Shown here one piece after another: positions 9,661 to 26,165 of a DNA stretch of 27,472 nt (position 1 is its first letter; the number at the start of each line of letters is the position of its first letter). Made by a program: the position numbers and the translations under genes. The notes under the pieces were generated by a model, which searched no databases, was not told the DNA's origin, and was given only the letters and a program-made list of their open reading frames with translations. The stretch comes from a virus. The DNA is taken from the IMG/VR virus record IMGVR_UViG_3300034103_001338, positions 1 to 27,472 of that record; one strand, written 5' to 3'.

Positions 9661-10461
9661 TTAATTGATTTTGCAAACTGGAATAGGCAGCATCTTGTGC
9701 ATATTCCGGGCACGAATCTCACGATACTTTTTAAGTTGTGCCCATTCAGTTTTATCTAGGTCATGTGCTGGTGTCTCATAACCACTTTCACATGCTAGTG
9801 GATCATTTTGCATGGCTCTCTCAAGTTCTTGGTAGCTCATGCCAAGTTGATCTTCGTCAGTGCGTCGATCTGACCAAAGTCCGTCGGTTGGGGCAGCTTC
9901 AATGATCTCCTTTAGAATCCCCAACTCTCGCCCCATGTCCCAAACTTCAGTTTTTAGACAATCACCAATGGGACTTAGGTCTACTCCGCCGTCTCCGTAT
10001 TTAGTAAAAAATCCTACGCCAAAATCTTCTACTTTATTGCCTGTGCCCACAACCAAGCCATTTCTACACTGTGCAATTTGATAAAGGGTCATCATACGCA
10101 GTCTTGACTTTGAATTGGCAAATGCCAGCTCTGCCGAGTCACTGTTTCTGCTGACCCAATCAAGTTTGTGAGCAAATACATCAAAAATTTCTGTTAGGTT
10201 TAAGCTTACATGTATGACCACATCAGAATATCTATCCAAAAGCCATTTGGCATGCATGCTGCTGCGATTATCAAGATTAGGATCTTGATGGATAGGCATC
10301 TGTACCGCAATAGTGGTAATGCCTGTTTCTGCACACAATGTGCTTACCACAGAACTGTCAATACCACCACTGATGCCTACAACAAAAGTTGATATTTTAT
10401 TTTGTTTTGCGTAGGTACGCAACCATTCAACAATGTGTTTGATTTTTTGTTTTGAATTCAT
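9661..10461 (-). CDS. nadE: NH3-dependent NAD+ synthetase
   Basis: 266 residues, near the usual 260-280. The ATP-pyrophosphatase loop SGGIDSS is at 31-37. FFTKYGDGGVDLSPIGDCLKTEV (151-173) and APTDGLWSDRRTDEDQLGMSY (190-210) are diagnostic of NadE. It converts nicotinate adenine dinucleotide, ATP and ammonia to NAD+, the last step of NAD synthesis. There is no glutaminase domain, so it depends on free ammonia. Its ATG overlaps the stop of the upstream gene (ATGA). It sits in the operon started by the promoter at 11717-11745, suggesting NAD pool maintenance during infection. Confidence 0.94.
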   Translation of the reverse strand: MNSKQKIKHIVEWLRTYAKQNKISTFVVGISGGIDSSVVSTLCAETGITTIAVQMPIHQDPNLDNRSSMHAKWLLDRYSDVVIHVSLNLTEIFDVFAHKLDWVSRNSDSAELAFANSKSRLRMMTLYQIAQCRNGLVVGTGNKVEDFGVGFFTKYGDGGVDLSPIGDCLKTEVWDMGRELGILKEIIEAAPTDGLWSDRRTDEDQLGMSYQELERAMQNDPLACESGYETPAHDLDKTEWAQLKKYREIRARNMHKMLPIPVCKIN

Positions 10462-13436: not shown

Positions 13437-13691
13437 TCAGTTCCAATCTTTCTTGTCACCAAATTTTTCATTCCACTCATAGCCAGCCATGTATTCTGCC
13501 ACACTGGCCGGATCTTTAACTTCCACACGCGGACCGCTGTCGCCACCTACCCCACCATAGTGGGCTGCTGGCGCACGATGATAGTAGCTGTCAGCGGATC
13601 CACGATCAAACAGGCTACCATGATTCTTACGATCAAACTGCCAACGATCAGCAAGAATATTAAATACTCGTTCTTTCTCTGCCATCATCAT
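13437..13691 (-). CDS. Small conserved phage protein (GSADSYY type)
   Basis: 84 residues from the first of three consecutive ATGs; the second (13688) has better spacing (7 nt) from GGAGG. Motifs FDRGSADSYYHR, HYGGVGGDSGPRV and VAEYMAGYEWNEKFG resemble small phage proteins with a GSADxYYxR ... YxxGYxxNE signature. The function is unknown. The ATG overlaps the upstream TGA. Confidence 0.75.
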   Translation of the reverse strand: MMMAEKERVFNILADRWQFDRKNHGSLFDRGSADSYYHRAPAAHYGGVGGDSGPRVEVKDPASVAEYMAGYEWNEKFGDKKDWN

Positions 13692-13861
13692 GCTGCCTCC
13701 ATCATTGAATAGCCACTTACTACATTAAAAAGATTGTCCCGCTGCCAGTCCCAAGCATCACTACAACGATTGCACACTGGACCCACACGCACCACCGAAC
13801 CATCTGCGAACTGTAGTTCAGTCTGCCAACCGCCTATCACACCCACTGTGGTTACCCTCAT
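13688..13861 (-). CDS. 57-residue unknown protein
   Basis: The start at 13861 is chosen because AAGGAG lies 6 nt upstream and the longer frame (to 13924) would translate the promoter itself. It contains GGWQTELQFADGSVVRVGPVC and CNRCSDAWDWQRDN; the CxxC pair could bind zinc. First gene after promoter cassette copy 1. Confidence 0.7.
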   Translation of the reverse strand: MRVTTVGVIGGWQTELQFADGSVVRVGPVCNRCSDAWDWQRDNLFNVVSGYSMMEAA

Positions 13862-13862
13862 A

Positions 13863-13920
13863 TTTGGCTCCTTGTTATTCACTATACCCATATTATAGCA
13901 AAATGGGTTTTTTTGGTCAA
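13863..13920 (-). repeat. Promoter cassette copy 1
   Basis: A 58-bp block from the -35 to the SD of the downstream gene, identical to 14270-14327 and 51/54 identical to 18985-19038. The three differences in copy 3 fall in the promoter spacer. It carries promoter, leader and AAGGAG, so the whole expression signal has been duplicated. Confidence 0.95.
13892..13920 (-). promoter_or_regulatory. Sigma70 promoter with dyad over the -10 (copy 1)
   Basis: TTGACC (13920-13915), 17-bp spacer, TATAAT (13897-13892). ACCCAT and ATGGGT arms at 13903-13908 and 13886-13891 flank the -10 with 11 bp between, an arrangement suited to a repressor operator. Drives the 57-residue gene and those behind it. Confidence 0.88.
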
Positions 13921-13926
13921 CCAAAA

Positions 13927-14268
13927 TTAGAACCCATATGGATAGTATTTGTCAGCTAAGTCTTGATTGGCCTTCACGATCCAGTGACGAGCAGACAACT
14001 TATCCATTACGTCAAAAGCAATATTCTCTGCATAAAAATCCATTTGTCTAACATTCTTGCGTGTTGCAAGTTTGGCAATCACCGAATCAAACTTTTCGCG
14101 AACCACAGGATCCGCAATAGTGCGGGCTATTGCATCTTTTTTATCAATGCCGACCCCTCGCCATTGCGAAGCAGTAAACATGCCATCTTGGCTCTTCCAC
14201 ATTTCACGGCACACTGATTCGAACTTTGGTAGGCGCACGTTCACTGTCACAGTTTTAGTAATAAGCAT
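13927..14268 (-). CDS. 113-residue unknown protein
   Basis: The start at 14268 is chosen by the AAGGAG 6 nt upstream; the longer frame would read through the promoter. The sequence is basic and helical: TVNVRLPKFESVCREMWKSQ, DKKDAIARTIADPVVREKFDSVIAKLATRKNVRQMDF, and KYYPYGF at the C-terminus. I do not recognise the family. First gene after promoter cassette copy 2; its stop is 6 nt before the -35 of copy 1. Confidence 0.72.
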   Translation of the reverse strand: MLITKTVTVNVRLPKFESVCREMWKSQDGMFTASQWRGVGIDKKDAIARTIADPVVREKFDSVIAKLATRKNVRQMDFYAENIAFDVMDKLSARHWIVKANQDLADKYYPYGF

Positions 14269-14269
14269 G

Positions 14270-14327
14270 TTTGGCTCCTTGTTATTCACTATACCCATAT
14301 TATAGCAAAATGGGTTTTTTTGGTCAA
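14270..14327 (-). repeat. Promoter cassette copy 2
   Basis: Identical over 58 bp to 13863-13920. A stem-loop (GTTGC and GCAAC, 7-nt loop, 14338-14354) lies just upstream of the -35, so the unit has the stem-loop plus promoter composition of mobile regulatory cassettes reported in T4-type phages. Confidence 0.95.
14299..14327 (-). promoter_or_regulatory. Sigma70 promoter with dyad over the -10 (copy 2)
   Basis: TTGACC (14327-14322), 17-bp spacer, TATAAT (14304-14299), with the same ACCCAT/ATGGGT dyad. Drives the 113-residue gene. Confidence 0.88.
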
Positions 14328-14363
14328 AGGGTTTTTTGTTGCTTAAAATGCAACAGTTAGTGA

Positions 14364-16538: not shown

Positions 16539-17702
16539 TCAATTGTTACGCCAATATTCACTGGCAGCGGCCACTCCACTACCGGGCTCGACTTTGATAC
16601 CGCAGTCTAGCATGGCCATTTCTGCCCCAGCGATTGCTGCCATTAAGTGTACTTCATTCATGTCGCCCAAATGGCCTATGCGGAAAAGCTTGCCTGCCAT
16701 TTTGTTTAGACCTGCACCTAGGGATAGGTTATATCTCTTATATGCTCTACTGATCACATCTGCACCGTTGATGCCTTCTGGAACCATGATTGCCGAAACA
16801 GTGTCGCTATGCCATTTAGGTTCCTGAGCACACAATTTCAACCCCCAACCTTGTACCGCAGCACGTACACCAGAAGCTAGATAATTATGGCGCTGTATTA
16901 CGTTATCTAATCCTTCTTCTTCTAAAATGCACAATGCTTCTTTCAAGCCGTATAGTAATGATAGAGCAGGCGTGTAGGGAAAGTAACCAGTGGTTGTGGA
17001 CTGCAACATGTCGTCAAGATTAAAATAAGCTCTTGGTAACTTTGCTGTCTTACGCATTTCAAGAGCCTTCTCACTAGCACACAGGATACCTAGTCCAGCT
17101 GGTAGCATGAGACCTTTTTGTGATCCTGTGACCACCATGTCAATGCCCCAATCATCTACTCGTAAATCAATGCTGGCAAAACTACTCACAGCATCTACAA
17201 ACAGCAAGGCCGGATGATTAGCATTGTTCATAATACGGCGCACACCTGCAACATCTGAAGTGACACCAGTGGCAGTTTCATTGTGTGTTGCCAACACTGC
17301 CTTGATTCGATGTTCGGTGTCTGCTTCAAGTCTATCTCTCACTATGTCTAGAGGCATACCTGTGCCCCATTCACAGTCAATGACATCAACTTCCAAGCCA
17401 AGACGCTGACACATTTCAATCCAAAGGTGACTGAACTGTCCAAATCTTGCAGCTAACACACGATCACCTGGCGACAAGGTATTTGAAATTGCCGCCTCCC
17501 AACAACCTGTGCCGCTGCTGGGAAAAATAAAAGGTGTGCCTGTTTGTGTTCTAAACAGATTTTTGAGTTTAGGAATTATTGCTTTGGTAAGCGCAGGAAA
17601 ATCCGGAGACCTGTGGTCTTCCATGGAAACAACCATAGCTCTAAGAACTCGATCTGGAACATTGGTAGGTCCAGGCACAAATAAGAAATTACGTCCAGCC
17701 AT
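16539..17702 (-). CDS. sgaA: Serine-glyoxylate aminotransferase (PLP class V)
   Basis: 387 residues, full length. FVPGPTNVPDRVLRAM at the N-terminus, EDHRSPDFPALT, SSGTGCWEAAISNTL (62-76, PLP phosphate region), HNETATGV, FVDAVSS (D170, pyridine-N contact), GSQKGLMLPAGLG with catalytic K196, TTGYFPYTP, FRIGHLGDMNE and GSGVAAAS. These match SgaA of serine-cycle methylotrophs and other proteobacteria closely. Reaction: serine plus glyoxylate to hydroxypyruvate plus glycine. AGGAG lies 7 nt before the ATG. No active-site residue is missing, so it is probably active, and it is an auxiliary metabolic gene when carried by a phage. Confidence 0.94.
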   Translation of the reverse strand: MAGRNFLFVPGPTNVPDRVLRAMVVSMEDHRSPDFPALTKAIIPKLKNLFRTQTGTPFIFPSSGTGCWEAAISNTLSPGDRVLAARFGQFSHLWIEMCQRLGLEVDVIDCEWGTGMPLDIVRDRLEADTEHRIKAVLATHNETATGVTSDVAGVRRIMNNANHPALLFVDAVSSFASIDLRVDDWGIDMVVTGSQKGLMLPAGLGILCASEKALEMRKTAKLPRAYFNLDDMLQSTTTGYFPYTPALSLLYGLKEALCILEEEGLDNVIQRHNYLASGVRAAVQGWGLKLCAQEPKWHSDTVSAIMVPEGINGADVISRAYKRYNLSLGAGLNKMAGKLFRIGHLGDMNEVHLMAAIAGAEMAMLDCGIKVEPGSGVAAASEYWRNN

Positions 17703-18704: not shown

Positions 18705-18977
18705 TTATTTCCGATCCATGATGTAAGTAAACAGGACCCACTTGGCACGGTTCAGTTGCTGACGAGCATCTTCGGCTCGCATTGAATCAACTTCACCGTA
18801 TTCGGTATTGACCATCTCTTGTGCATCCGACATCATGCTAGCAACAACCATGGCCGGACCAGTGAACTTGAAAGTGACGCTGGACTCTACTGCTTCGCGC
18901 ATCTGCGCTTCGGTGCAACCGTACATGCCGACTTCACGGATTTCTTGGGTAGTAAGACCTTCGAATGCTGTTCTCAT
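18705..18977 (-). CDS. 90-residue unknown protein
   Basis: Starts just after promoter cassette copy 3, with AAGGAG upstream. MRTAFEGLTTQEIREVGMYG, CTEAQMREAVESSVTFKFTGPAMVVASMMSDAQEM and ARQQLNRAKWVLFTYI indicate a mostly helical, slightly amphipathic protein. I do not recognise a family. First gene of a run continuing to about 16332. Confidence 0.7.
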   Translation of the reverse strand: MRTAFEGLTTQEIREVGMYGCTEAQMREAVESSVTFKFTGPAMVVASMMSDAQEMVNTEYGEVDSMRAEDARQQLNRAKWVLFTYIMDRK

Positions 18978-18984
18978 TTGTCAC

Positions 18985-19038
18985 GCTCCTTGTTATTCAC
19001 TATACCCATATTATACGAAATTGGGTTTTTTTGGTCAA
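18985..19038 (-). repeat. Promoter cassette copy 3
   Basis: 51 of 54 bases match copies 1 and 2, located 5 kb away. All three differences are in the spacer between -35 and -10; the hexamers, leader and SD are unchanged, consistent with selection on them. Confidence 0.93.
19010..19038 (-). promoter_or_regulatory. Sigma70 promoter (copy 3), -35 overlaps a stop codon
   Basis: TTGACC (19038-19033), 17-bp spacer, TATAAT (19015-19010). The TGA inside TTGACC (19037-19035) is the stop of the 37-residue membrane gene. The flanking dyad is ACCCA/TGGGT, one pair shorter than in copies 1 and 2. Confidence 0.88.
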
Positions 19039-19148: not shown

Positions 19149-19195
19149 TTTAGTAACCGTCCTTGAAAAGTTGTTGTTTTAGCAATGGAATTATG

Positions 19196-19222
19196 CCTTG
19201 CTACAGATCAAATTGTAGCAGG
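19196..19222 (-). promoter_or_regulatory. Operator-like dyad over a -10 box
   Basis: TGCTACA and TGTAGCA form a 7-bp inverted repeat with 8 bp between; beyond it GGC/GCC also pair with a one-base bulge. The -10 TACAAT lies inside. No U-tract follows, so it is a protein-binding dyad candidate rather than a terminator. Confidence 0.5.
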
Positions 19223-19240
19223 CCATGATTTTTTGGTCAA
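19212..19240 (-). promoter_or_regulatory. Sigma70 promoter for the small membrane protein
   Basis: TTGACC (19240-19235), followed by a 17-bp spacer that begins with A residues, then TACAAT (19217-19212). The -35 starts 10 nt past the stop of the L12-like gene. Confidence 0.75.
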
Positions 19241-19249
19241 TGTTGCAAA

Positions 19250-19666
19250 TTACACAAGTAGTCCTAGTTTGCGTAACTCTACTTTGAATGTGGGTTTAAG
19301 TGATGTGTCTACTTCTAGCATCACATGACCTTTTTCTATTAGGTCATCTGCTATTTCTTTGGCCTGTTTTAAATCAAGATTTCTGCGATCATAGGTTCTT
19401 ATACTACGAATAAAACTGACCTTTTGAAAGTCGCCGTATCCAGATGTACGCACCATTATTTTTCTTTGATCCATGTCACCACTGAGCATGGCCATAAACA
19501 CCTGGGCTTTGAGATCAGCGTCCACTGCATCAGCAAGTTGTCCCCAGATTTCTATGCCACGATCTGGGCCATATATGTGGGTAACTGTTCTTAGAAAACC
19601 AATACTGGCATATACCAATTCATGGCGTTCAATGTCTGGTAATGATGAAAGTTTGTTTTGAGTCAC
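19250..19666 (-). CDS. Protein with ribosomal L7/L12 C-terminal-like domain
   Basis: 138 residues from a GTG that overlaps the Rieske TGA (GTGA). Residues 1-65 are helical (PDIERHELVYASIGFLRTVTHIYG ... KAQVFMAMLSGD). From about 80, KVSFIRSIRTYDRRNLDLKQAKEIADDLIE, then TFKVELRKLGLLV, follow the L7/L12 C-terminal pattern (K-x-x-x-I-(K/R)-x-(I/V)-R ... L-x-L-K-x-A-K-x-(I/L)-x-(D/E) ... L-x-x-x-G). In ribosomes that domain recruits translational GTPases. The N-terminal stalk-binding region is not recognisable as L12, so this is a domain match, not a standard L12. With IF-1 it hints at translation control. Confidence 0.72.
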   Translation of the reverse strand: MTQNKLSSLPDIERHELVYASIGFLRTVTHIYGPDRGIEIWGQLADAVDADLKAQVFMAMLSGDMDQRKIMVRTSGYGDFQKVSFIRSIRTYDRRNLDLKQAKEIADDLIEKGHVMLEVDTSLKPTFKVELRKLGLLV

Positions 19667-20709
19667 TGTTTTTCCTGAGAGTTCAATACGTCGTAGTATT
19701 CGTAAAAATATTTCAAACCTAGTTCCATGGGATTGTGCATAGGTCCTACATCATCAAAATTCAAAGACATGTTAAATCTACGTCCTCGATCCATGCGCTC
19801 TGCTATTTCATCATCTTCGTAGGCGGTTTCCATGTATGCGGCCTGATGAGCTTCCACAAATTCGCTTTCAAAATGCACTATTTCTTCTGGGTAATAAAAG
19901 TCCACTATGTTTCTTGTGCGCTGTGGTGTTTCTGGCCACAATGTAGAAATAACCAATACTTCGGGATACCATTCTACCATGATGTTGGGATATATGGTTA
20001 ACCATATTGCTCCATGATCCGGCACATTACCATGCCTGTAATCTAACAACGCCTTGTGCCAGCGTTTGTATATTGAGGTGCCTGGGGTTTTTAATTTGTT
20101 GAAAATGCCCACAGACTGCACACTGTAGTTTTCGCCAAATTGCCAATCTAGTTTTGTACAATCCACAAAGTTTCCTAGACCAGGATGAAACGGTCTTACA
20201 TGATAATCATCTAAGTATACCTCAATAAAAGTTTTCCAATTATAGTTGCATACATGTTCGCGACGCGAATGGAACGCATAACCAGAAAAATCAAAGTGAT
20301 GCCCAAGTTTCATTGATTGCAAATCTGGAACAATGTGTTTGTTGTTTTCAAACAAAATACCATTCCAGCTCTGTATAGGAAATTTAGTCAGGTGTCGATC
20401 CGGGCATGGATCAAAATCTGGAGCACCAATTAGCTGTCCATTTAAATCATACGTCCAGCCGTGCAATGGACATACAATATTTGCTGTGTGCCCTGACCTA
20501 TTCAACATCACAGCCTGCCTATGCCTACATACATTGCTCAAACATTCTATACCATTCTTGTTTTTCACAAGAACTCGCGCACTGTCTTCTTGTGGAACGG
20601 TATAGTAGTTGTCTACTAAGATTTCATGACCAAGATATTTGGCCTGCGTGAACAAATCTTGTTCACGCAACAATATTTTATCATCAAAGTAAAAGTTACT
20701 GGGTTTCAT
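19663..20709 (-). CDS. Rieske non-haem iron oxygenase, alpha-subunit type
   Basis: 348 residues. Rieske 2Fe-2S motif: C61-R-H63 and C80-PL-H83 (NVCRHRQAVMLN, IVCPLHGWTYDLNGQLIGAP). Catalytic mononuclear-iron site: VYLDDYHVRPFHPGL with D168 (bridging), H170 and H175, and a third ligand candidate at D299/D300 in YEDDEI. All metal ligands are present, so it is probably active. Family enzymes oxygenate aromatics, amines or lipids and need a reductase; no reductase gene is nearby. It recalls betaproteobacterial Rieske proteins. It is in a tight run with SGNH, GT-like and UXS genes, so a substrate linked to surface glycans or lipids is possible. Confidence 0.93.
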   Translation of the reverse strand: MKPSNFYFDDKILLREQDLFTQAKYLGHEILVDNYYTVPQEDSARVLVKNKNGIECLSNVCRHRQAVMLNRSGHTANIVCPLHGWTYDLNGQLIGAPDFDPCPDRHLTKFPIQSWNGILFENNKHIVPDLQSMKLGHHFDFSGYAFHSRREHVCNYNWKTFIEVYLDDYHVRPFHPGLGNFVDCTKLDWQFGENYSVQSVGIFNKLKTPGTSIYKRWHKALLDYRHGNVPDHGAIWLTIYPNIMVEWYPEVLVISTLWPETPQRTRNIVDFYYPEEIVHFESEFVEAHQAAYMETAYEDDEIAERMDRGRRFNMSLNFDDVGPMHNPMELGLKYFYEYYDVLNSQEKQ

Positions 20710-26130: not shown

Positions 26131-26136
26131 GTTCAC

Positions 26137-26165
26137 AGTATAAACAATGTTGGTTTTTTGGTCAA
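26137..26165 (-). promoter_or_regulatory. Sigma70 promoter giving a leaderless transcript
   Basis: TTGACC (26165-26160), A-run, 17-bp spacer, TATACT (26142-26137). The first base 7 nt past the -10 is the A of the ATG at 26130. Confidence 0.8.

Follow-up and report, generated by a model that had tools for sequence, protein, structure and literature searches.

The window analysed here is a complete IMG/VR record of 27,472 bases, a 27-kb fragment with no further genome left to search. It carries three copies of a repeat that belongs to a large family of promoter-leader-Shine-Dalgarno (SD) cassettes of uncultured phages, some of them with T4-type core genes. The cassettes stand before small genes, and recombination between copies probably swaps these genes and homogenises the copies. 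The initial annotation had likened the repeats to the promoter early stem loops (PeSLs) of T4-type phages, elements reportedly described by Arbiol et al. in 2010 and by Comeau et al. in 2014. This reading was largely supported in kind, subject to corrections: the mobile units are mostly genes or cassette-plus-gene modules, rather than free cassettes.

Cassette copies and the genes behind them

All three copies lie on the minus strand and follow the pattern TTGACC-N17-TATAAT-ATGGGTATAGTGAATAACAAGGAGC, in the order -35 box, -10 box, leader with AAGGAG, and ATG. Copy 1 (13863-13920) has its -35 box (TTGACC) at 13915-13920, its -10 box (TATAAT) at 13892-13897, its SD (AAGGAG) at 13868-13873 and the ATG at 13859-13861. 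The corresponding positions in copy 2 (14270-14327) are 14322-14327, 14299-14304, 14275-14280 and 14266-14268, and those in copy 3 (18985-19038) are 19033-19038, 19010-19015, 18986-18991 and 18975-18977. Copies 1 and 2, described in the initial annotation as two identical 58-bp units, were indeed identical at 58 of 58 bp; their starts are 407 bp apart and the identity stops at the functional unit. The three differences reported for copy 3 were also recovered, as 3 mismatches in 54 bp, all in the spacer between -35 and -10 (CATTTTGC vs CAATTTCG). The 31-bp core TATAATATGGGTATAGTGAATAACAAGGAGC occurred exactly three times in the window and was absent from the reversed control, which excludes a chance origin of the repeat. 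Judged from the sequence, each of the three intergenic elements contains a promoter of the host sigma-70 type, and its predicted activity would be strong and early.

The -35 extension TTGACCAAAAAA was tried as a marker by itself and was rejected as common and unspecific. Another TTGACCAAAAAA promoter, with the -10 box TACAAT, was present at 19195-19240 (minus strand), before a short ORF with the N-terminus MQTVKE just upstream of cassette 3, and a strong operator-like dyad, GCCTGCTACA-atttgatc-TGTAGCAAGGC, spans its -10 box. At 26134-26165 (minus strand), TTGACC-N17-TATACT is followed directly by GTGAACATG, which belongs to an 80-aa ORF, and may give rise to a leaderless early transcript.

The genes behind the copies, all on the minus strand, are P0001 (57 aa, 13688-13861) behind copy 1, P0002 (113 aa, 13927-14268) behind copy 2, with an identical cassette on either side, and P0003 (90 aa, 18705-18977) behind copy 3. 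Each fell in a different protein cluster, and none of the three matched Pfam or PHROG families. Together with the cassette anatomy, the separate clusters bear out that the copies supply -35, -10, leader and SD to different, unrelated genes; near-identical copies before unrelated accessory genes are also what is expected of PeSLs. An 84-aa gene (13437-13691, minus strand) overlaps the end of P0001. The only relative found for P0001 (in L443, 74% identical) occupies second place in a different operon, behind another gene's cassette and lacking one of its own. For the 83-aa gene that lies upstream of copy 2, the viral collection contained no relative.

Three larger genes of the window, all on the minus strand, could be assigned. 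The gene at 19663-20709 encodes a Rieske-type ring-hydroxylating oxygenase alpha subunit (Pfam Ring_hydroxyl_A and Rieske), for which the phage collection gave only weak matches, to benA/antA-like genes. The NAD synthetase encoded at 9661-10461 shares 53% identity with its counterpart in Pelagibacter phage HTVC008M and about 46-50% with those of cyanophages. A class V aminotransferase is encoded at 16539-17702, approximately 2.3 kb upstream of P0002. In the P0002 relatives L297-L301 (not L299), a 391-aa gene (MAGRNF...) lies approximately 400 bp upstream and may be of the aminotransferase family; if so, the window has extra genes and a tRNA-Met between that gene and P0002.

Distribution among uncultured phages

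A search for the unit across the window and its relatives, as the initial annotation had suggested, returned the three window copies and a large family in uncultured phages. The 19-bp leader TATAGTGAATAACAAGGAG was detected in 75 stretches from viral contigs, representing 71 distinct contexts including the window's own, and nearly all full contexts had a -35 box, spacer, -10 box and start codon. Scanning 271 deduplicated related sequences (4.56 Mb) gave 543 cassettes, 529 of them unique, with the consensus GG-TTGAC-N18-TATA(A/C)T, a leader of approximately 30 nt with GGAGC, and then the start codon. The 29-letter cassette pattern had no match among 84,980 species genomes of bacteria and archaea, and among 50,697 records of isolated phages there was no convincing match to the unit, to P0003 or to the region, except for the tRNA.

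A gp23-type capsid gene was detected in 5 of the 22 records searched (the window is not among the 22) and the T4 portal in 4. DNA polymerase, helicase or tail-sheath proteins are encoded in G018, G032 and G031, and the corresponding PHROGs are presumably T4-type. The PHROG tail-sheath profiles matched G018, and the phage sheath Pfam model gave no match above its cut-off.

Stem-loops upstream of the cassettes

The stem-loop that had been annotated just upstream of copy 2 is real (TGTTGC-ATTTTAA-GCAACA, 14337-14355, minus strand), with a folding energy of -6.7 kcal/mol (z -2.1; equally stable in 8 of 200 shuffles). It has no U-run after the stem and is not terminator-like, and copy 2 is the sole one of the three to have such a structure, since none was found upstream of copies 1 and 3. 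Other inverted repeats rich in AAC/GTT occupy the same position in the relatives of P0002. We surveyed up to 50 bp upstream of the -35 box in the 529 unique cassettes: perfect stems of at least 6 bp were present in 30% of them, compared with 10% in a control region taken from these loci and 4% in shuffled sequences. Terminator-like stems were present in 10%, compared with 1.3% and 0.6%, respectively. The layout of promoter plus stem-loop is therefore frequent, not universal.

Conservation of cassettes at orthologous genes

Judged by orthologous position, the cassettes largely remain with their gene. We found 179 relatives of P0003; for relatives 69-94% identical, nearly all of the upstream regions listed had the cassette at the corresponding position, L220 being a clear exception. 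All six relatives of P0002 carry one. The family of the 84-aa gene has its own cassette directly before it in most of the relatives listed (30 of 31 on preselected loci, a count that we do not use as a frequency because of that preselection). Leader and spacer vary between lineages; for example, the nearest relatives of P0003 (94%) have the leader TATAGTAACTAATAAGGAG, while the window has TATAGTGAATAACAAGGAG.

The initial annotation had named repeats at fixed orthologous sites, diverging slowly and without any movement, as the pattern that would speak against mobility. Half of this pattern holds, because cassettes usually stay with their gene; the absence of movement does not, as gene indels bounded by cassettes were found in relatives.

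Gene gain, loss and replacement at cassettes

The gene behind the cassette that follows P0002 varies between relatives: it is P0001 (57 aa) in the window, a 67-aa gene in L298 and a gene of 85-89 aa in L299, L301 and L302. In L297 and L300 a 345-aa gene comes directly after P0002, and none of the 57-, 67- or 85-89-aa genes is present.

Comparing insertion points between relatives, as had also been proposed, gave three pairs of related contigs with single-gene insertions of 265-433 bp whose joints lie inside cassettes; gene indels or swaps with joints at the element, another property expected of PeSLs, are thus seen in relatives of the window. Two of the three pairs are at the P0003 and 84-aa gene loci, both of which have counterparts in the window. 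In particular, the near-identity of L135 and L145 covers the gene upstream, a terminator-like hairpin and a complete cassette up to the SD. Past the SD, L135 continues with the 84-aa gene family, whereas L145 has a different gene and a second cassette before that family (324 bp). L232 and G018, with flanks 96 and 98% identical, are set apart by 433 bp at the P0003 cassette; G018 has an additional gene there with its own cassette-like promoter, which L232 lacks. The 265-bp difference between L265 and L045 corresponds to one gene and its cassette. Finally, L148 and L153 share a 95% identical block that starts at a cassette and have different genes before it.

In a broader comparison, the joint of the shorter allele fell in a cassette in 8 of 52 distinct indels, compared with 1.45% for positions drawn at random from those sequences (p about 8e-7), that is, insertion points in cassettes at about ten times the random expectation. 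Ends of homology blocks coincided with 81 of 156 cassettes (52%) and with 125 of 555 other gene starts (22.5%; odds ratio 3.7). Both tests are biased, as cassettes or cassette genes served as queries to retrieve the loci and the rapid divergence of intergenic DNA raises the breakpoint count; the breakpoint test is further biased in that cassettes align with one another. Since the other 44 of the 52 indels fell outside cassettes, these are one route of gene exchange among several. The notion of mobile regulatory cassettes as in T4-type phages, put forward in the initial annotation, thus agrees with the indels and breakpoints at cassettes, the upstream stem-loops and the homogenisation described below, and needs amending as to the mobile unit, which is mostly a gene or a cassette-plus-gene module.

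Homogenisation of copies within genomes

We compared 112 cassettes from 25 records. Spacer similarity was 63.8% between different genes of the same genome, 53.9% between orthologues across genomes and 49.7% between unrelated pairs. The genome label was reached in 0 of 2000 permutations, and the effect of the gene label was weak (59 of 2000). The leaders also had a clear genome effect, with orthologues (0.677) on average slightly above genome mates (0.643). The flanks 9-15 bp upstream of the -35 box had none (0.273 and 0.273), which counts against base composition as the cause. Identical spacers were found in 7 of 339 within-genome pairs and in 2 of 5699 unrelated between-genome pairs (p 5e-8). 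With spacers more alike within a genome than between orthologues, and flanks not, we conclude that the copies homogenise.

Four within-genome pairs had identity over at least 50 bp: copies 1 and 2 of the window, and pairs in G018 (63 bp, 168 kb apart), G030 (53 bp, 392 bp apart) and G032 (52 bp, 232 bp apart). Homogenisation of promoters is seen clearly in L045 (5900-6490), where three neighbouring cassettes share their spacer at 16-17 of 17 positions, AAAAAACACCATTTTGC or one change away, while the orthologous neighbours in L265 (4930-5260) have spacers differing from one another.

Proposed mechanism and alternative explanations

We propose that the repeat combines a phage promoter of host type (sigma-70-like) with a short, fixed, A-rich 5' leader containing an SD site, which would give a small accessory gene strong transcription and translation at any position. 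Near-identical cassettes before unrelated small genes may then recombine, within one genome or between co-infecting phages, presumably by homologous recombination. Such events would insert, delete or replace a single gene with the joint in the cassette, and would also make the copies of one genome alike. The simplest reading of the window is that P0002 is a one-gene module between identical cassettes, with either the module inserted at P0001 and the 84-aa gene or the cassette duplicated before these genes. Copies 1 and 2 likely arose by recent copying. This step, like the rest of the window's own duplication history, is one that we infer, since a search for close relatives of the window with an empty site found none and hence gave no occupied/empty pair.

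The likeness of the cassettes could instead reflect a shared strong promoter consensus, with promoters kept by descent and converging under the same polymerase, ribosome or phage regulator, and no copying involved. Cassettes at orthologous genes with slow drift, functional elements conserved across hundreds of copies and the end of the identity of copies 1 and 2 at the functional unit are all compatible with this account. We nevertheless regard it as unlikely, because spacers are barely constrained by promoter recognition and are yet shared within genomes more than between orthologues, unlike the flanks. The common spacer of the three L045 cassettes, set against their differing L265 orthologues, the 63-bp identity between distant sites of G018 and the cassette-bounded gene indels argue in the same direction. 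Local tandem duplication, by slippage or unequal crossing over and with no wider part in gene exchange, would suit the short distance between copies 1 and 2 (407 bp) and the higher frequency of identical spacers among neighbours (3 of 39 pairs less than 1 kb apart vs 4 of 300). Duplication by itself is insufficient, however, because the copies stand before unrelated genes; moreover, identical cassettes in G018 are separated by 168 kb, gene indels at cassettes occur in other lineages, and we hold this explanation to be distinctly improbable.

The cassette might also be the site of a lineage-specific phage regulator, with the dyad ACCCAT-11-ATGGGT around the -10 box as a candidate operator and co-evolution keeping the copies alike. 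All three window copies have dyad arms of 5-6 bp, and spacer and leader types do vary between phage lineages. Among the 529 cassettes, however, arms of at least 5 bp were present in 7.9%, compared with 5.7% (sd 1.0) when spacers were redealt (8.7 vs 6.9% within records). There was no clear excess across the family, so the dyad was rejected as a family feature, and we give this explanation very little credence. Recombination between cassettes remains our preferred explanation. A more tentative extension, which we would not yet favour, is that the cassette acts as a lineage-specific socket: recombination would keep the copies alike and hence recombinable, small cassette-bearing genes would plug in already expressed, and phage lineages that differ in cassette type would constitute separate gene-exchange groups.

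Comparison with known systems

PeSLs are small promoter elements between genes, repeated before accessory genes and often preceded by a stem-loop; they are cited as mediating gene shuffling between relatives (PMC4503421). Compared with that description, the cassettes are alike in being repeated promoter elements before accessory genes, with gene exchange between relatives. They differ in that the repeat continues through a conserved leader and SD nearly to the ATG, in that perfect stems of at least 6 bp lie within 50 bp upstream of only about 30% (terminator-like in about 10%), and in that cassette sequences are lineage-specific and homogenised within genomes. RB49, RB43, Aeh1 and other T4-like phages have early host-type promoters with a phage-specific extended consensus before many novel ORFs (PMC1524935). 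The cassettes share the host type and the extended, phage-specific consensus, but their -35 box is TTGAC (or TAGAC) where T4 has GTTTAC, and their conservation runs on through leader and SD. In PAK_P1-like phages, bacterial-type promoters are surrounded by a conserved motif of 41 bp (Henry et al. 2015, cited in PMC4791379). This motif likewise contains the promoter and is repeated within, and specific to, one phage group; it belongs to other phages, and the passage concerned in PMC4791379 states no link to gene shuffling.

The way in which tailed phages swap single small genes in the absence of long homology is a standing question, and many of these genes probably serve host takeover or counter-defence. 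A homogenised promoter-leader-SD cassette at the joints of indels would broaden the PeSL concept to include a large group of uncultured environmental phages, and the cassette is a practical marker for accessory-gene modules in metagenomes.
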